Origin: Henricia sp. BOLD:AAB3569 | Taxonomy: Eukaryota; Echinodermata; Asteroidea; Spinulosida; Echinasteridae | DNA length: 64,000 bases | Direction: 5' to 3' | Assembly (NCBI GenBank): GCA_037783545.1 | Contig: JBBELK010000921.1 | Coordinates: 682,001-746,000 of the forward strand | Shown here: positions 1,873 to 50,640 of the stretch, piece by piece | Position numbering within the stretch: position 1 is the stretch's first letter | Layout: each line of letters starts with the position of its first letter | Program-made: the position numbers and the translations under genes | Notes under the pieces: model-generated | Told to the model about the DNA's origin: nothing | Databases searched by the model: none | The model's input: the letters and a program-made list of their open reading frames with translations, nothing else

Positions 1873-3625
1873 ATGGCGGAGAGAGTCCTTGCGATCCGTG
1901 TTTCGGAAGAGGAGCGACGTCTCATACTAGACGGTTATAGACTGCATGGTAACAACTGGGCACACGTTGTTCAGTATGTGTTGGGGCATGCAGATCCTAA
2001 TCACATGTTACATCAGCAATATTTGGAGAGAACTCCCGCACAGCAAAGACGCCGGGTTAGAGATGTCATCCTGAGAGACATTGTGAGGTAAACGTTTTCG
2101 CTTTTTTTCAGGTATATTCTTGATGTGTATACCATAATATGTAGTCGCATCCGAGATATGGGACATTCCATGAAGTTGAGGAACAAAGTGTGACATTTCT
2201 TTATTTCCACAAAAATGGTCAACAAGGGAGCAATGAATCACCATTTATATAACGATGTTGCATGATGTGGTGGCTTACACTGTTTGGGGGTAATTTGGGA
2301 GTCTTCAGATTTGACAAAGTGATGCCGCCATTTTGAATTATTTAACAAAGTGGTGGTTGTGGATGTAACTCGGAAACCTAATACAGTTCAACTGATTTCA
2401 CTCCAACTACAAATGTTTTCATGTTGAATTCGAAATTAACACAGTTCTCAAAACTAAACAATCCTTTTTATTTTGAATTTGAAGGATTCTAGCTAAAATT
2501 TCTTTGTGATTCAAGAAAATCTGCTAAAAGGCCCCAAATGTCGCACAACATTTGAACAACATTATATTTAGTTGACATGTAACAAAATCCTCATGGATTT
2601 AAATTTATAAGTAATTAATGTTTTTAATTTCTCTCATCCAACAGCTTGAATTTCTGAAGAGTATTGATTCATGGGGTTATCAAGGGCAAAACAAAGTAAA
2701 GATGGTTGTGGATGTAACACGGAAACCGTGTTCCTCAACTTCATGGAATGACCTCTATCTGCCCTTAAATTTTAGGCTGCAAGATCAGCGCGAGAGAGAT
2801 ATGAGATATGCTGCTATAGGCAATCCTGCCGAAAGGAGAAGACGATTTCTTCAGAACCAACAACCTCCGCCGTTGCCGCCTCAACCAAACCAACCCGGAC
2901 CGCTTCAGCCGCCGCCTCAACCCATCCAGCCCGCTCCGCCGCCGCCTCAACCCAACCAGCCCGCTCCGCCGCCGCCTCGACCCAACCAGCCCGCTCCGCC
3001 GCCGCCTCGACCCAACCAGCCCGCTCCGCCGCCGCCTCAACCCAACCAGCCCGCTCCGCCGCCGCCTCAACCCAACCAGCCCGCTCCGCCGCCGCCTCAA
3101 CCCAACCAGCCCGCTCCGCCGCCGCCTCAACCCAACCAGCCCGCTCCGCCCCCGCCTCAACCCAACCAGCCCGCTCCGCCCCCGCCTCAACCCAACCAGC
3201 CCGCTCCGCCCCCGCCTCAACCCAACCAGCCCGCTCCGCCGCCGCCTCAACCCAACCAGCCCGCTCCGCCGCCGCCTCAACCCAACCAGCCCGCTCCGCC
3301 CCCGCCTCAACCCAACCAGCCCGCTCCGCCCCCGCCTCAACCCAACCAGCCCGCTCCGCCCCCGCCTCAACCCAACCAGCCCGCTCCGCCCCCGCCTCAA
3401 CCCAACCAGCCCGCTCCGCCCCCGCCTCAACCCAACCAGCCCGCTCCGCCCCCGCCTCAACCCAACCAGCCCGCTCCGCCCCCGCCTCAAGGCGGTAATA
3501 TTCCACTGCCAAGGTGGGAGCCCGGTAGGCTTCCGCTCCACGAGGTTATTAGGAGGAGTCACGAGGCGTTTTATGGCTATGTTAGTCGCACTCTACCACA
3601 AGTCACAGAGGAACTCGTTCGGTGA
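1873..3625 (+). CDS. Myb/SANT-like protein with long proline-rich repeat (two exons), Harbinger accessory gene candidate
   Basis: Exon 1 runs from ATG 1873 (1861 is an alternative in-frame ATG) to 2087 and exon 2 from 2776 to the stop at 3625; the intron 2088-2775 has GTAAAC and TTTTAG borders and joins in phase (AG|G, Arg). Residues ~10-60 hold EEERRLILDGYRLHGNNWAH, which has the spacing of a Myb/SANT helix pair, then an Arg-rich stretch (QQRRRVRDVILRDIV, later ERRRRF). The middle is about 19 copies of PNQPAPPPPQ. The C-terminus (about 45 residues) is ordinary sequence. Harbinger elements encode such Myb-like proteins that help the transposase bind DNA and enter the nucleus, and a Harbinger transposase lies divergently next door; that role is inferred. 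The proline repeat is unusual for this family. It could instead be a host regulator. Confidence 0.7.
2088..2775 (+). other. Intron of the Myb-like gene
   Basis: Donor GAG|GTAAAC and acceptor CCCTTAAATTTTAG|G. It holds two copies of a phrase reading GGTTGTGGATGTAAC (near 2351 and 2702). A rival acceptor, CATCCAACAG at 2644, would give another frame and an early stop, so 2775 is preferred. Confidence 0.7.
2920..3490 (+). repeat. 30-bp coding minisatellite (about 19 units)
   Basis: Units of CCCAACCAGCCCGCTCC plus a CCGCCGCC or CCCCCGCC tail repeat every 30 bp. Unit variants differ mainly at synonymous third positions (GCCGCC versus CCCGCC), and a few units have CGA for CAA. Because 30 is divisible by 3 and the unit lacks stops, other frames on both strands are open too; these are shadows. 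Confidence 0.95.
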
Positions 3626-7061: not shown

Positions 7062-8695
7062 TATTATTATTTTTATTATCTTTGTTTTACCAGGGAGACC
7101 CATTCACATAAACATGTGGTCTTCCATGGGGCCCTGGGAAATATAATTAAAAAAAATAAAACATAAATAGAATTTCAAATATACTATTAAAAATGTACAC
7201 CAGACATAAAATGTTAAAACACAAGAACAGAAAGGTTAAAACAATAATATACAGAAATAAAATAAAAATAGGTAAATTACCATCAAAGTACACATAGATA
7301 CATACGGGAATCCGAATAAAACTAAACTAATTTCAAAATCTGTCAAAAATAAATAAAGGTTACGATTTGTAATAGTTACAATAATACAAGTAAAATTATA
7401 TAAATAAAACTGGGTGGGTTTAAAAATAATAATAATAATGGGTTTATACAAATAAAACAGCGAAAGATAAAATAGTTAAGAGGCAGAAGCTAAAAGACTT
7501 GTCTTCAGAAGTGATTTAAAATGTGATAGAGATGGCGCCGAACGAATTTTAGTACTTAGGGTATTCCATATTCTGGTGCAATTAATAATTGGACTGTGTT
7601 TGTAGCACTCCGTTTTGTACTTTGGGATAATTAAATTATTAGCAGTAGCTCCTCTAGTATTGTAATCGTGTGCATCTGAAAGTTTTATTACATTATTGGT
7701 TAAATACGACGGCGCAAGTCCATGAGTACATTTAAACATAAAAACCGCCAAATTCGTGCTCGAAACACGCAGCTCCATAGCAAAGGCATGGATTGCGTGG
7801 CACACATTTAGCGGGCGCGCATTGCTGACGAGCCTGTGCCTTTAAGTAAAACAATCGTTCATGTAATGGCAACCATCGTAATTCTTTAAAAAGTTCACTT
7901 GATGGAGTGTCAAAACCTTTAGACAAGATTAAACGGGCTGCATACTTCTGTAACTTAATTAATTTATCATTGTGCATCTGAAAGCTATCCGACCATATTT
8001 GTGAGCAGTAGTCGAAGTGTAGTAAAACGAAAGCATTATACATTGTTTTTAGTACATTAAATGGAATACATGGTTTTGCGCGTCTCAAGATTGCAAGTTT
8101 TGTCCGTACCGTCTTGACAACATGATCGACATGGTCAGTCCATTTTAACTCATCATCAATTATTACGCCAAGGCATTTGATACTCTTGACCCTTTTAATT
8201 AAACACTGGTTAAGTGACACTGTAATTTCGCTCGAATTCTTCAATTTTGATCATAACATTCGTTTTATCAAATTTGAGCACAAGTCTATTATTCTCTAAC
8301 CATCCGCTTATTTGGTCTGTCGCAACAGATAATTTGTTTGCAACTTCATTCGCCGTTTTGCCGTTGACAGTAACAGTAGTGTCATCGGCAAACATGTCTA
8401 GTGTACCATCAGTAACTGCAGACGGCATGGAATTCACATATATATATAATAATAGCGGACCTAGAATTGAGCCTTGCGGAACTCCGCTAACAACCTTTAA
8501 TCGATCAGAGAAAACCTTTTTAAAACAGACCCTTTGAGTCCGGTCTGACAAGTAGCTGGAGAACCGATTCAGTGTACGATTTGAGCAACCAAGTGCTTTC
8601 AATTTTATGAGAAGAATATTATGGTCAATTGTATCAAATGCCTTCCTTAGGTCAATAAAAGCCACTCCATTAAGTTGACCGTTTTCAATATTACC
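7062..8695 (-). mobile_element. LINE (CR1/L2-like), 5'-truncated, reverse transcriptase C-terminal half and 3' UTR
   Basis: On the minus strand the sequence reads NGVAFIDLRKAFDTIDH, GVPQGSILGPLL, the catalytic FADDT box (residue pattern F/Y-A-D-D), then KCLGVIIDDELKWTDHV and the C-terminal LRWLPLHERLFYLKA and HGLAPSYL blocks typical of CR1/L2-type LINEs. The frame is broken in at least two places between 8210 and 7730. The 3' UTR runs to an ATT-rich tail at 7062-7080, near which is a ccagggagaccc phrase. The 5' side is cut at about 8695, before the first reverse transcriptase motifs, as expected for incomplete reverse transcription. Confidence 0.9.
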
Positions 8696-9063
8696 ACTCC
8701 ATCACTCCGCACTAGGCATGGGAGGGTAGGCTAATCATAGGGCTAATATTTCGAACAAAATGTGCTTTTGATGAGGTTATGTGGAGTAAGTCATTTCAAT
8801 TCTACTTCGATCGGAATTCAAAGCAAAGCAAGGAAAAATGTGGGGATTCGCAAGGATGAGGAAGGTTCCTTTTAATATAATTGTTACTTTCAGGCACCCG
8901 TTCCTATATTTTATCCCCCATGAGTATGGGAATGAAAATACGAGGTAAAACTATGACAATGTACTGGTAGGTTATGGGCTATATGTACCAGGGTGTCAAT
9001 ATCCCCCTCTCCCCAATCCGCAGAGTGCAGAAAACATTAAATCAATTTTTTTTTCCTTTTCAG

Positions 9064-9173
9064 AAGAGGGCTTTGATGACGAGTCGTTTGGTCTTCTAAC
9101 AGAAGAGTCAAAGAAGGAGGTGATTCCAAAGCTGGGAATTCGTCTGAAATTTATGGCCCTTCATCGTGCAGAG
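9064..9173 (+). CDS. SAM-domain exon (second half of the domain), SAMD3-like gene
   Basis: A pyrimidine-rich acceptor (TTTTCCTTTTCAG) and a donor GAG|GTAATT frame a 110-bp exon, entered in phase 1 and left in phase 0. It reads EEGFDDESFGLLTEESKKEV then IPKLGIRLKFMALHRAE, the last three helices of a sterile alpha motif domain (a protein-protein interaction fold). The first half of the domain is not visible upstream of 9064. The exon at 41615-41684 has the missing half and would join it perfectly (ends GCC G; this exon starts AA), but it lies 32 kb downstream, so it belongs to a paralogue. Confidence 0.85.
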
Positions 9174-9305
9174 GTAATTTCACTTGTACCTTCAGTTCAC
9201 ATGCTGCTGAACATGTTCAAAACTGTGCACTCAGTTTTTAATTATCTGCTTAATTAGAATAAATCTGCCAGTAAACAACACAGGCATCTTCAGTGAAACA
9301 AAATC

Positions 9306-10076
9306 ATGAAATCCTTTACATGCTGCAAATGTTTGATAAGAGTACCAGGAGGAATCCGCGGTCTGTTTGCACACCTGAAGTTTGTACACATTATTCTTAC
9401 TTCTACTTGCACAAAGATGGTATGTGCAGAGCAAAACTGCCACAAAATATTCTGGCGTGGTTCAACTTATAAACGTCATTTGCAACAAAATCACGAGGCC
9501 CGAGATGGTGAAGTACAGGGAAGGCCTCATGTTGAACAACCTGGACAGAATGTTGAAATACACCACCTTGTAGAGCAACAAGAAGTAGCTGAAGAGCAAG
9601 ACGATGCAGTGGGAGAAGAAAACATCCCAGGTGACATTCCCACATGGATGGGGCCCATATTGGCACCATATGGGCAAGTATATGGGGCCCATATGGGTCC
9701 TGTATGGGCTGCACCCAACGCCCATGTGCGGCCCATATGGGTCAACCATTGTTCTCCTGCCCAGATCATTCCTACATGGGTCCCATGTGGGTCGTGTCGT
9801 GGGTGCAGCACATGGGCGTTGGGTGCAGCCCATATGGGCCCCATATACTTGCCCATATGGGGCCAATATGGGTCCCATGTGGGAATGTTACCTGGGATAC
9901 TTGCGGATGGAGACATAAAGTATTCCATATTAGCTTATGTAGCAAGGTTGCGAGGCACTGGAAATCCTGCAACAACGATGCAGTACGTCATTAATGAATC
10001 CAAGGAGGTGTTGGGTAATGTTATAGGACAGGTTCAACAACAATTGGCACCATTATTTATAGGTTTAAGAAATTGA
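9306..10076 (+). CDS. C2H2 zinc-finger ORF of a DNA transposon, extended in frame by a MITE
   Basis: A 256-residue frame. Residues 4-29 (CCKC...HLKFVH) and 40-62 (CAEQNC...KRHLQQNH) are two C2H2-type zinc fingers. About residues 107-198 are encoded by a palindromic MITE (9624-9898), which has no stop in this frame. The last ~55 residues (YSILAYVARLRGTGNP onward) resume the transposon protein, ending GQVQQQLAPLF. C2H2 fingers followed by a DDE-type transposase block are a combination I know from fish and marine invertebrate DNA transposons. The downstream transposase region (10105 on) is in another frame, so the element is not intact. Expression is unknown. Confidence 0.7.
   Translation: MKSFTCCKCLIRVPGGIRGLFAHLKFVHIILTSTCTKMVCAEQNCHKIFWRGSTYKRHLQQNHEARDGEVQGRPHVEQPGQNVEIHHLVEQQEVAEEQDDAVGEENIPGDIPTWMGPILAPYGQVYGAHMGPVWAAPNAHVRPIWVNHCSPAQIIPTWVPCGSCRGCSTWALGAAHMGPIYLPIWGQYGSHVGMLPGILADGDIKYSILAYVARLRGTGNPATTMQYVINESKEVLGNVIGQVQQQLAPLFIGLRN
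9624..9898. mobile_element. Palindromic MITE rich in GGGCCCATATGGG, inside the zinc-finger ORF
   Basis: The arms (ATCCCAGGTGACATTCCC at 9624; its near reverse complement ends at 9898) pair along almost their whole length of about 110 bases, with internal CATATGGGCAAGTATATGG and GCACCCAACGCCCATGTG blocks on both sides. Several frames on both strands are stop-free through it, which explains a cloud of overlapping frames here. No clear target-site duplication was found. Confidence 0.85.
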
Positions 10077-10104
10077 GAGCAGCCAACTGAGGAATTGATA
10101 AACA

Positions 10105-12119
10105 GTTTGGAAATAAGGTGTTTTTGGTGACTTTGAAACTGAATATAAACAAAAGAAATACCTAAAGGATGCAGATCTTCTAGTTGAGCCTAAGGAAATG
10201 GAACTGGGTCAAGTTTTCAGAGTTCAAACTAACAGAACTACTGGCCGCAACTATCAGGAGCAGCAGAAAGAATGTTTTCAATACATCCCTCTAAGTAATG
10301 TGATTACCAGGTTTCTTCAGCAGCCAGGCTTCATGTCGGCAATTTTACAAGGAGCACAGTCCGAAGATGATGAAGTGTTGCAGTCATACCGTGATGGATT
10401 GTACTTCAAAGAGAGCCTGAACTTTGGGAGTTCAAGAGAAACTGTAATACCTATTTGTCTGTACTCGGATGACTTTGAAACTGCTAATCCACTGGGTTCA
10501 AGAAAAGGCATCCACAAACTTACTGCAGTGTACATATCTTTCCCATGCTTGCCTATGCAGTACCAAGCTAGTCTGCGCAACATTCTGTTGACCGCTTTAG
10601 CTCCCACACGATGTCAAGAAATATGGAATGGAAAGCATCTTGTCTCCAATTACGCAAGAGCTACTAGACATGGAGAGAATTGAAATACATATCAACTGCC
10701 CCAATGAGTATGTTGGAAGTATCAAGCCAAAAGTACTGCAAGTGACAGGGGACAACCTTGGATTGAATTCCATGCTTGGGTATGTAACAAGTTTTGTGAG
10801 CAACTACTATTGCCGATTTTGTAAAATGCATCGAGAGCAAGCTCGGAGAGAAGCAGTTAAAGACGGAAGGCTTCTTAGAAACCAGGGATGATGATGATGT
10901 GGCCACCAATGATCCTTCTGCAACATGAATACGCCACATGAGCGTATTGAATTCTCTACCATATTATCATGTCATTCATAACAAGGCATTAGATATAATG
11001 TGGGGTTTTATGGCCGAGCGGTCTAGTGCGTCGAACTTAAGTTCTTGTGTTAGTACTAGAATGTAGGTTCGATTCCGGGCCGCGACGGGTTGTGGCACCT
11101 GTGCCCTTGAGCAAGGCACTCAACCACACTTGCTCCCATTCCTGTAATTGGCGGTCCCTCCGCTGTTGGATGTGGTATCTAAATAAATAAAAATAGAAAA
11201 GAAGGGGTTCTACCACTCGAGATGAAATTAGTACTCGGCGAAATACTTCAAAGGGGGCAAATCACCCTGTAAAACTTCAACAGCAGGCTGCAGTCCTTTA
11301 ACTACGGCTTCATAGATAAAAAGAACCGACCAAGCTCTCTGTCTGCACATCAGATAGCTAATCCAGCTGGACCTAGTGGCCAGAAGGATGCGCAAAAGAA
11401 ATGCCTCATCCTGTATTTCCCCGCTCTTAATCGGGGACAAAGTAGAGGAAGAATCTGAACACTGGGATTTGTTGCTCCAGATACTGGAAATTTTCAAGCT
11501 AGTGAGTGCTCCAAAAATAAGCAAAATGGCGACCTTCTTCCTAAGATCCAAAGTTGAGGATCATCATACACTCTTCCTGAAGCTCTTTCCAGGTAGGCAG
11601 TTGACACCTAAACAACACAACTGTATTCATTATCCTTCTGCGATAAGATGTCTTGATCCTCTTTCTCAGTACTCAGTGATGAGAATGGAGGCAAAACACA
11701 AAGAGCTGAAAAAGTGGGCAAAAGTTTCCAACAACTTCAGGAATATAGCAAAGACCCTAGCAGAGAGACACCAGCAGGCTCAAGGATTTGAATTCCTCAT
11801 GAAACAAGAAATGAGCAGCCGATCTGTGGAACTGGGAATTTTAGTGGTGGTAAAGGCTTCTGCACTTGAAAATTCTGATCAAGTTGTAAGAGCTCTTCGG
11901 TGCCTTCCAGAGCAAGATATAACTGTTGTTACTAGTGTCAAAATCAGTGGATATACCTACAGACCAAATGTTCAAGTTTTGATTAGTTGGGATGATGAAC
12001 CACACTTTGCTAATGTTGAGCAGATGGTGATTGCTGATGGCAGCCTAAGACTGATTGTCAAACCTTGGACCACTTTGTACTTCCACCAGTACTACAATGC
12101 ATATGCAGTGAAATAATCC
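10105..12119 (+). pseudogene. DDE-type DNA transposase relic (zinc-finger/EnSpm-like family), interrupted by a SINE
   Basis: The protein signal runs through several frames: FRVQTNRTTGRNYQ..., then a first catalytic-type block SDDFETANPLGSRKGIHKL (10470-10527), then VTGDNLGLNSMLGYVTS (10742-10797) with YCRFCKM just after, then a SINE, then SFNYGFIDKKNRPS (about 11300) and a C-terminal block LTPKQHNCIHYPSAI, MRMEAKHKELKKWAKVSNNF, KTLAERHQQ (11600-11775). These motifs in this order are those of a transposase family of fish and marine invertebrates; assigning it to CACTA/EnSpm is my inference. At least three frame changes are seen (between 10076 and 10198, near 10680, and between 11260 and 11376). 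Terminal repeats were not found. Confidence 0.75.
11008..11203 (+). mobile_element. tRNA-derived SINE, copy 1 (full length)
   Basis: Begins TTATGGCCGAGCGGTCTAGT, a Leu/Ser-type tRNA head with A box, and carries a B box GGTTCGATTCC about 50 bases later. The body includes TTGAGCAAGGCACTCAACC and CCATTCCTGTAATTGGCGG, and the tail is AAATAAATAAAAATAG. GGGGTT flanks both sides (11002-11007 and 11204-11209), a likely target-site duplication, and the transposase reading resumes in GVLPLEMKLVLGE after it. Confidence 0.9.
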
Positions 12120-13188
12120 AACCATCACATTACTCCATACAGTTAAGTGCTATGATGTGAGAAATCCAGTTTGATTTATCGTCACACGTTTCAAGATGGC
12201 CTGATGACCTTGTCAAGAGCACCAATACACACAGGTACATGTTGTTAAGTTATAATGCTTACAATCGGTAAATTTAATAACTTATCTGATAATGCTTGAA
12301 TCGTCAACAGAGGGCGCTGTTACACTGGACCGTACATTGTGGGGAATTCACCTTTCACAGGCGTGACGTTGCAAACATATTTGTTTTGTTTTTGTAGTCG
12401 CCATTTTTTGTCGTCGCTAACACGTCATCCCAAAGTCGTAAGTTAAACAAACTGTTCATTATTTGAGTGCAAACTTCATTGATCTTTCCAGCTGCAATGT
12501 ATTTGATATACTCAGTAAATTGGATGTAAATTTGGGGTCTTATTTGTAGCGTAAGAACTGTAAACAAAGGAACACAGTCACTTAAGTTATTGGTGTATGC
12601 AAGGTGCGATACACGTTTTGTTTTAATGCATGTGGACATGACATGTAGAAACTTACGTAGCCACGTTTAAGCCTTAATATGAGCCCGGTTGATATGTGCC
12701 ATTGTTTAATTATAATCGCTTTTCCTTAATTTAAATACTATCAGAGATGTTAATTCATACCCGTGATTTATGACTATTTGAAGTTGATTTGTGTCATGTG
12801 TTCTTTTTGATTGGACAGATTAAACCGTGCAACATGCAAGTTATGTCCATAAATCAAGTTTCGTAAAAGTTTCTTGACAACCGTCACTCTACCCGTCACA
12901 CATGTACACTAATAAAAATTGCAGAGCCACAAAGAATAGCACAAATTCCTCCTCTCACCAACATTTTGTAATAAATTTCTACATTCAATGCAGGTGCAAG
13001 GCTCAGCTCTAGTTGTAGATGTCTCATTTAAAGTCAAAGCTCTCATCAGCGGTAGTTATTTATAATATATTGTGGCAGAGTTAATTTAATTCAGAAATAC
13101 ATTCATTCCTAAGAGTGATGTAAATGTTCGCACAATATTCTGCACCTGATTCACAGTTTACTCTAAAGTATCAGCTGCATCATTTCGT
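12120..13188. other. No gene recognised
   Basis: AT-rich sequence between the transposon relic and the next MITE, within the presumed SAMD3-like intron. The right end of the transposon probably lies here but no terminal repeat was identified. Confidence 0.45.
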
Positions 13189-13807
13189 CGGTCGCCCCAC
13201 GAAGTGGCGTATTTTTGCAATTTCTGTTTTTGGTATAATTTGACTTTATTTGGTGTCCTTAACATTTATGCAAGGTTACGAGACTTGACAATTTGTATTT
13301 TTTTAATTACAGAAGTTGCCTTAAACCACGTAACTAATGGGTTTGCAAATTTACCTTTTCACGAAGTGGCGTATCGTGATACGCCACTCATTGAAAAAGA
13401 TGGTATGTGCATGAATTGCTTTTTCACGAAGTGGCGTATCGCAATACGCCACTGCGTGAAAATGCCACGCGCTCGGGCGACGTTATAAATATTACGCGCG
13501 CAGAGAAATACAGACAGGGGGCGAATTCTGTGGCAAATCACGCATGGTCGGCATTTTTCTTTTTCACGAAGTGACGAATAAGTTTTAAGATAAAGTGTTC
13601 TTTAATTAGACAATCAATACAACAAAAAAGTATATTTTTACGTCATTTAACTCATACTAAAAAGTATCACCTAAAAAGACTAACGGCTTTTCATAGAATA
13701 ACCGGCGAAGTTGGAGTTTTAAAAAGTGACCAACTTCAAAAGCGATTTTCTCAAAACAAAGTTTTACTACTGCGTTCGCGGATACGCCACTTCGTGGTGC
13801 GACCGAC
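13189..13807. mobile_element. TIR element of the CCACGAAGTGGCG family, copy 1
   Basis: The left end CGTCGGTCGCCCCACGAAG and the right end (reverse complement CGTCGGTCGCACCACGAAG) form terminal inverted repeats of about 27 bp with one mismatch. Inside are two near-perfect hairpins built from the same word (13362-13389 and 13423-13461) and a further single copy at 13563. It has no coding frame. ATTT on both sides could be a target-site duplication, but another copy of the family shares bases on the right side, so this is uncertain. Confidence 0.85.
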
Positions 13808-22474: not shown

Positions 22475-22672
22475 ACTTTATTTATTTTTATTTATTTATT
22501 CACCACATCCAACAGCGGAGGGACCGCCAATTACAGGAATGGGAGCAAGTGTGGTTGAGTGCCTTGCTCAAGGGCACCACAACCCGTCACGGCCAGGAAT
22601 CGAACCTACATTCTAGTACTAGCACAGGAACTTAAGTTCGACGCACTAGACCGCTCGGCCATAACACCCTAC
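22475..22672 (-). mobile_element. tRNA-derived SINE, copy 2
   Basis: Reverse orientation of the SINE at 11008: A/T-rich tail at 22475-22499, then CAACAGCGGAGGGACCGCC, B box complement GGAATCGAACC, and head complement CCGCTCGGCCATAA near 22651-22664. Full length with intact A and B boxes. Confidence 0.9.
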
Positions 22673-45357: not shown

Positions 45358-45530
45358 GGGGTGTTATGGCCGAACTTAAGTTCCTGTGCTAGTACTAGAA
45401 TGTAGCTTCGATTCCGGGCCGTGACGGGTTGTGGCACCTGTGCAAGGCACTCAACCACACTTGCTCCCATTCCTGTAATTGGCGGTCTCTCCGCTGTTGG
45501 ATGTGGTGAATAAATACATAAATACAATTA
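45358..45530 (+). mobile_element. tRNA-derived SINE, copy 3 (internally deleted)
   Basis: Same family as 11008. About 17 bases including most of the A box are missing after ATGGCCG, and about 8 bases are missing before CAAGGCACTCAACC. The B box region reads GCTTCGATTCC. Probably unable to be transcribed by RNA polymerase III. Confidence 0.88.
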
Positions 45531-50040: not shown

Positions 50041-50640
50041 ATATCTAGTCGGGCCCATGGACTAATTGTCCATGGCTGAAAGAATATCGTTGTTCACACG
50101 GGTGTCTTTCTATAAATTAGGGGTCCACTGTTGGTGTCCCCCGTTACATTTTACATCTTGTTTTTGTAAATTCAGGACACATTCTTTAAACACTTTCCAT
50201 CTCAAAGAGTGAGTACATAAAGTACAATTCATACAAAATGGTTTAAAAGCCATTTTAATGATTTTTGTACGAAAAATAACGCATATCAGGTGTAACGGGG
50301 GACACCAAATGTCACACTTTTGGACCCCTAATTTATAGAAAGACCCACGGACTAGTGCAACTTCCGTCCCATGGAAAGCCTTGTATGCCGACTGGAACAT
50401 GTCGGACAGGTTGAAAGCATAAATGTGATAGCGAATGCGTGATGAAACTACTCGTTCAATTACTTTTCCGAGATACTTTAAGTTCGCAACTGGTCTGTAG
50501 TTTTCGAATACCTCCTTGTCCAGGTTGGGTTTCTTAATGAGCGGCCTGATGTAGGAAATCTTTAGGCTATCGGGGAAGCGACCGGAGCTGAGAGATTTGT
50601 TTACAAGAGCAGTGATGTACGGAACAAATCAATGTTTTGA
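50041..50640 (-). mobile_element. LINE fragment (reverse transcriptase N-terminal part), split by a MITE
   Basis: Minus strand: SSGRFPDSLKISYIRPLIKK, ENYRPVANLKYLGKVIERV, SDMFQSAYKAFHGTEVALVR, then a 243-bp insertion, then VNNDILSAMDN. This is the standard start of a CR1/L2-type reverse transcriptase domain (NYRPVxNL, QSAYxxxHxTExAL). Both ends are truncated. Confidence 0.88.
50104..50346. mobile_element. MITE inside the LINE fragment
   Basis: GTCTTTCTATAAATTAGGGG at both ends, inverted, continuing TCCA and GGTGTCCCCCGTTACA. The LINE reading VR|VNNDIL shows where it landed, and CCGTG (4-6 bp) appears duplicated at the borders. Confidence 0.88.

Follow-up and report, generated by a model that had tools for sequence, protein, structure and literature searches.

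In-frame palindromic or MITE-like inserts are already known, namely the Rickettsia palindromic elements (RPE), the enterobacterial RU elements and the Submariner MITEs, and there is reportedly published work on selfish elements in the coding exons of ciliates and on MITEs in these organisms. In the case of RPE, it has been reported that 11 of 12 homologues in three other Rickettsia species are in frame (PMC10969869). The enterobacterial RU-1, RU-2 and RU-3 have been described as MITE-like sequences with open reading frames that are found within annotated genes (PMC2759123). For the Submariner MITEs of Pandoravirus salinus, 10 of 30 copies have been reported to be part of predicted ORFs; eight of these 10 extend the end of the ORF and the other two make up the whole ORF (PMC4495683).

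Here we describe a palindromic insert at positions 9624–9898 of a 64 kb stretch of DNA (40% GC, no N), the whole of which was analysed and is referred to below as the window. Like an RPE, this insert is a short palindromic repeat that lies in frame within a protein gene; however RPE, as described, are bacterial, approximately 150 bp long and present in many copies in metabolic genes, whereas the insert is a single copy, apparently eukaryotic, in what appears to be a dead transposon (PMC10969869). With RU-1, RU-2 and RU-3 it has in common that a MITE-like sequence is open in a gene, but according to their description these elements are bacterial, have a length of 103–168 bp and occupy several gene loci (PMC2759123). 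Submariner, as reported, is of the Tc1/mariner type with a TA duplication, while the insert is internal in its ORF and has AT at its ends (PMC4495683). The insert and its ends are made up as follows.

9624–9898, no strand assigned: palindromic MITE-like insert of 275 bp counting both AT copies, characterized by arm complementarity, stops, folding energy and self-alignment
9624–9647, plus strand: left terminal inverted repeat, including AT, with donor-like CAG/GTGAC and a TGA in frame 2
9875–9898, minus strand: right terminal inverted repeat, including AT, which on the minus strand reads CAG/GTAAC and has a TAA in frame 2
9624–9625, no strand assigned: AT, left copy of the proposed target-site duplication, from flank comparison
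9897–9898, no strand assigned: AT, right copy of the proposed target-site duplication, from flank comparison

A preliminary description of this locus had spoken of a 275-bp palindromic MITE. The palindrome itself is borne out by three pairs of complementary arms (9624–9647 with 9875–9898, 96%; 9648–9697 with 9829–9878, 96%; 9691–9732 with 9805–9846, 90%) and by folding. As DNA, the hairpin formed by 9624–9898 has an energy of −124.3 kcal/mol against a shuffle mean of −55.97 (z −17.3), and as RNA of −215 kcal/mol against a shuffle mean of −120.78; in both cases none of 200 shuffles was as stable. An alignment of the insert with its reverse complement pairs the arms, apart from a few substitutions and two gaps of 4 and 11 bp, and leaves the centre unmatched. 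The longer gap has the same length as the period (11 bases) of a degenerate repeat, GCCCATATGGG, which was detected inside the insert at 9828–9883 using Tandem Repeats Finder. At 275 bp and with terminal inverted repeats at its ends, the insert is a short element of the MITE kind, and we read it as a MITE-like insertion, its mobility being suggested by its structure and one copy being known. As for a MITE family, one copy is what the window contains.

The sequence of the insert largely consists of degenerate units of CCCATATGGG, which is self reverse-complementary and has zero stops in any frame on either strand. Four exact matches to CCCATATGGG are present in the window and all four lie within the insert, as do nine of the 11 matches with up to one mismatch and 13 of the 36 with up to two. 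Since CCCATATGGG is its own reverse complement, the tripeptides PIW, PYG and HMG appear in similar form across the six frames of the insert.

The complementarity of the arms is sharp-edged and stops at ATCCCAGG...CCTGGGAT. The flanks fit a duplication of either AT or AC, 2 bp each, and a 2-bp duplication is weak evidence; in addition, because AT is self-complementary, its duplication would mimic two extra bases of inverted repeat. If AT is the duplicated target, the element is 271 bp long (9626–9896) and the added DNA amounts to 273 bp, and upon deletion of these 273 bp the flanks join in frame as ...AVGEEN-ILADGDIKYS... and stay open to the stop at 10074. The ORF would then have 165 residues without the insert and 256 with it, so that the read-through in the ORF frame that had been noted before is upheld, but with 91 added residues under the AT model rather than 'about 92'. 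With AC as the duplicated target, 277 bp are added and the reading across the join hits a stop five residues further on. We prefer AT over AC, partly on account of the joining of the frame, an argument which assumes that the downstream frame was coding.

Autonomous partners of ISL2EU elements encode a THAP/DDE transposase together with a YqaJ ORF and share terminal repeats with them. It has been reported that the ISL2EU group, which belongs to the PHIS superfamily, produces a 2-bp AT target-site duplication, with the target inferred to be A/AT/T (PMC4482050). An AT duplication of the insert would agree with this, though AC fits its flanks too. However, the context of the insert is C/AT/A and not A/AT/T, and for this reason we have not filed it under ISL2EU; the comparison with the published description covers the target context, and no autonomous partner of the insert was seen.

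A blastn search of the 64 kb with the insert gave only the insert itself and chance matches of 13–14 bases, that is, one copy, and its terminal pattern, with up to three mismatches allowed, was found in the window only at its own two ends. No other copies were found by exact pattern in viral_contigs or genome_contigs or by blastn in phages. The pattern scans of the collections were exact and diverged copies escape them; furthermore, the collections contain mainly prokaryotic and viral DNA and the misses therefore say little on a eukaryotic element. Literature matches to short motif strings included, by title, none on such an element.

The ORF that carries the insert is followed by several further pieces on the same strand.

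9306–10076, plus strand: ORF of 256 codons carrying the insert, apparently the first piece of a decayed transposase-like gene
9321–9389, plus strand: C2H2-like motif 1, C-x2-C-x13-H-x4-H, from a six-frame regular expression search, not backed by Pfam
9423–9494, plus strand: C2H2-like motif 2, C-x4-C-x12-H-x4-H, from the regular expression search, not backed by Pfam
10074–10076, plus strand: stop TGA that ends the ORF, probably prematurely
10117–10683, plus strand: second transposase-like piece, shifted to frame 1 with respect to the ORF and unmatched in Pfam at E values up to 10
10601–10891, plus strand: third transposase-like piece, shifted to frame 2 with respect to the ORF and unmatched in Pfam at E values up to 10
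11000–11195, plus strand: SINE between the third and last transposase-like pieces, from its blastn relatives in the window
11358–12116, plus strand: last transposase-like piece, back in the frame of the ORF (frame 0), with a match to Pfam DUF7049 (E 0.00083) that falls below the cut-off

We read the ORF and the three stop-to-stop ORFs that follow it as pieces of one putative decayed transposase, as judged from their motifs, and the pieces presumably resemble the CACTA-like (CMC) transposases of animals. The ORF at 9306–10076 looks like the opening fragment of a transposase that is already broken; introns may explain one frame change but would not readily explain all of them plus the stop at 10074. 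To say that the insert sits inside the ORF 'without breaking' it and ahead of a 'C-terminal part', as in the preliminary description, is misleading: the ORF ends with the TGA at 10074, pieces follow in other frames and the SINE is found at 11000–11195.

In searches against Pfam with E values up to 1, the sole match of the ORF was Mut7-C (E 0.1, below the cut-off), and with E values up to 10 the part at 9306–9623 matched Mut7-C (0.026, below the cut-off) and zf-BED (3.2), with no support for C2H2. The C2H2 fingers that had been placed upstream of the insert were recovered as two motifs matching the regular expression (at 9321 and 9423), which are two of the four stop-free matches in the six frames of the window, but they are not backed by Pfam. 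No match to a Pfam transposase domain was obtained with the ORF or the following pieces. Comparison with viral_contigs (two of the four pieces) and genome_contigs (one of the four) gave no confirmed relatives, and none of the 7, 3 and 38 stretches matched in pattern scans with the pieces was confirmed by tblastn. Among the 25 longest of 53 inverted repeats in 8680–13200, none is convincing as terminal repeats of the host gene; the pair in this set that spans the gene, 8865–8887 with 12551–12573, is weak (74% over 23 nt). The fold predicted for 10117–10680 with no alignment has a mean pLDDT of 33.7 and is unusable for a structure search. A SAM-like exon upstream of the ORF (approximately 9064–9172, by eye) was considered and rejected: 8949–9254 had no Pfam match at E 0.01, and among solved structures it matched, with E values up to 1, nothing but a myosin light chain (E 0.074).

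Several other repeats are found in the window. The SINE at 11000–11195 has relatives at 22672–22483 (92%) and, for part of its length, at 45371–45522 (89%), giving three copies in the window. Its head appears tRNA-like by eye; ARAGORN reported no tRNA in the window and Rfam, at gathering thresholds, no match in the window. On the minus strand, 8210–8665 matches Pfam RVT_1 (E 7.6e-20) and is a piece of a LINE-like reverse transcriptase; the minus-strand ORFs beside it look, by eye only, like parts of the same LINE. Together with the SINE copies, this piece points to a eukaryotic source. A weak RVT_1 match (E 0.006, below the cut-off) was obtained for 50110–50628, also on the minus strand, in a scan of 10 of the 106 stop-to-stop ORFs. 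A satellite-like array with a 72-bp unit (5.9 copies, 98% matches) occupies 1235–1659.

The 275-bp insert contains five stops over the six frames and three of the six frames are open (plus 0, plus 1 and minus 0). Both of its ends have a frame 2 stop at offset 8, which is TGA in the left end and TAA in the right end, and as a result one phase is closed in either orientation. The remaining three stops are located in the non-palindromic centre, in minus frame 1, and the outer 110 bases of both arms are stop-free in six frames except for offset 8 in frame 2. Dinucleotide shuffles of the insert (n=2000) had a mean of 12.35 stops and 0.79 open frames, with five or fewer stops in seven and three or more open frames in 39 of them, and mononucleotide shuffles (n=2000) had a mean of 20.1 stops and in no case five or fewer. 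Slides of the size of the insert along the window (n=12745, a set that includes the insert itself and its neighbourhood) had a mean of 28.3 stops and 0.179 open frames; the 137 with three or more open frames include some in a proline-rich array near 2900. This array is a 30-bp tandem repeat (2900–3490, 19.7 copies) within 2615–3625, which codes for the Pro-rich repeat PPPPQPNQPA, and five of six frames are open in some 275-bp slides there. When the right half of the insert was turned into an artificial perfect palindrome, six stops and two open frames resulted, and therefore symmetry alone does not yield openness. The stop depletion of the insert is real but partial and goes beyond its dinucleotide make-up, and the stop-free CCCATATGGG unit is a plain source of it. 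The earlier wording, 'almost no stops in any frame', is thus right in that stops are fewer than by chance, but it is overstated. The earlier interpretation, in which insertions of this kind tend to be tolerated, is partly supported, in that the insert fits a frame-neutral length (273 bp, AT model) and is depleted of stops; the stop at each end closes one phase per orientation. At random phase and orientation, the frame would be open for this copy in three of six cases, that is, with an even chance.

In our opinion the insert is quite probably a non-autonomous foldback-type MITE nested in a pseudogenized transposon gene, and its open frame is incidental. A nested insertion is indicated by the sharp edges of the palindrome, by the AT at either end, by a length of 273 bp that is frame-neutral if AT is the duplicated target, and by the interrupted reading of the surrounding gene. 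According to this proposal, the foldback MITE would have inserted into the transposon gene before or after its decay, and may have been moved by the transposase of another element, which would have used the inverted repeats of the MITE and a 2-bp AT target. The open frame would then come from three ordinary facts, an added length that is a multiple of three, the stop-free CCCATATGGG units and a phase that avoids the stop of the terminal repeat, and selection for coding would be unnecessary. The host ORF seems to be a piece of a transposase that is broken, so that its frame need not have been under selection; and since three of the six choices of phase and orientation stay open, selection is not required to account for openness within a dead gene. 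A search for long ORFs would turn up just such cases.

Alternatively, the palindrome could be an old and fixed part of the host transposon, such as a regulatory foldback, and not a later insertion. Although no empty site has been seen and the window contains a single copy, in line with this idea, the sharp ends, the AT on both sides, the seamless in-frame join without the insert and a composition unlike that of the surroundings (GC 0.564 compared with 0.402 for the window) argue against it, and we regard it as unlikely.

Somewhat less likely again is that the insert behaves like an introner, with the terminal repeat supplying a 5′ splice site and most or all of the insert being removed from the mRNA. 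Introners with terminal inverted repeats, and some with their own 5′ splice site, have been described (PMC9860276), and both ends of the insert carry the donor-like CAG/GTRAC. This sequence is found three times on the two strands of the window, and two of the three are the terminal repeats of the insert, reading inward; the looser CAGGTRA, however, is found 13 times. Splicing from the donor at 9631 to the AG ending at 9912 would excise 282 bases, keep the frame and yield ...GEENIP-DIKYS..., which is close to the empty-site reading. Unlike in introners, this acceptor lies 14 bp outside the insert, it is weak, with a pyrimidine tract whose 6/15 is reached by 82% of the 3223 AGs in the window, and even unspliced the frame is open. 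Six of 12 AGs tested downstream of the donor (ending up to 10004) keep the frame, those at 9678, 9828, 9912, 9933, 9942 and 9954, which makes one near the end of the insert unsurprising, and the AG with a good tract, at 9764 (12/15), breaks the frame and sits inside the insert. The splicing of transposons out of mRNA is known as SOS splicing, a phrase that was absent among the literature matches listed.

It is very unlikely, in our view, that a functional zinc-finger protein retains the MITE as part of its coding sequence and that the MITE family is adapted to survival in coding DNA. Although the insertion is in frame, adds 91 residues and has fewer stops than 1993 of the 2000 dinucleotide shuffles, the host gene appears to be broken, three of six frames are closed and a one-phase stop is present at each end. 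In addition, a hairpin of −215 kcal/mol in any mRNA would presumably be a poor start for a new protein segment. The earlier suggestion that the insertion is tolerated by a working protein is not supported, given the apparently fragmentary state of the host ORF. The broadest proposal, a eukaryotic MITE family built of self-palindromic, stop-free CCCATATGGG units, rich in PIW, PYG and HMG in all frames and with a donor-like site at each end, which selection on the unit and the end sequences has pre-adapted to coding DNA by read-through or splicing-out, is highly improbable.

Most likely, then, the insert is an ordinary nested insertion and not a new protein part. If its family were to stay open, or to be spliced out, in coding DNA above compositional expectation, it would be a eukaryotic parallel to the Rickettsia palindromic elements, and such an excess, if true, would make it a test case for mobile DNA making protein segments. 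As it stands, the locus illustrates that a nested insertion in a pseudogene can pass for a tolerated coding insertion, because the long ORF catches the eye and the remainder of the dead gene does not.
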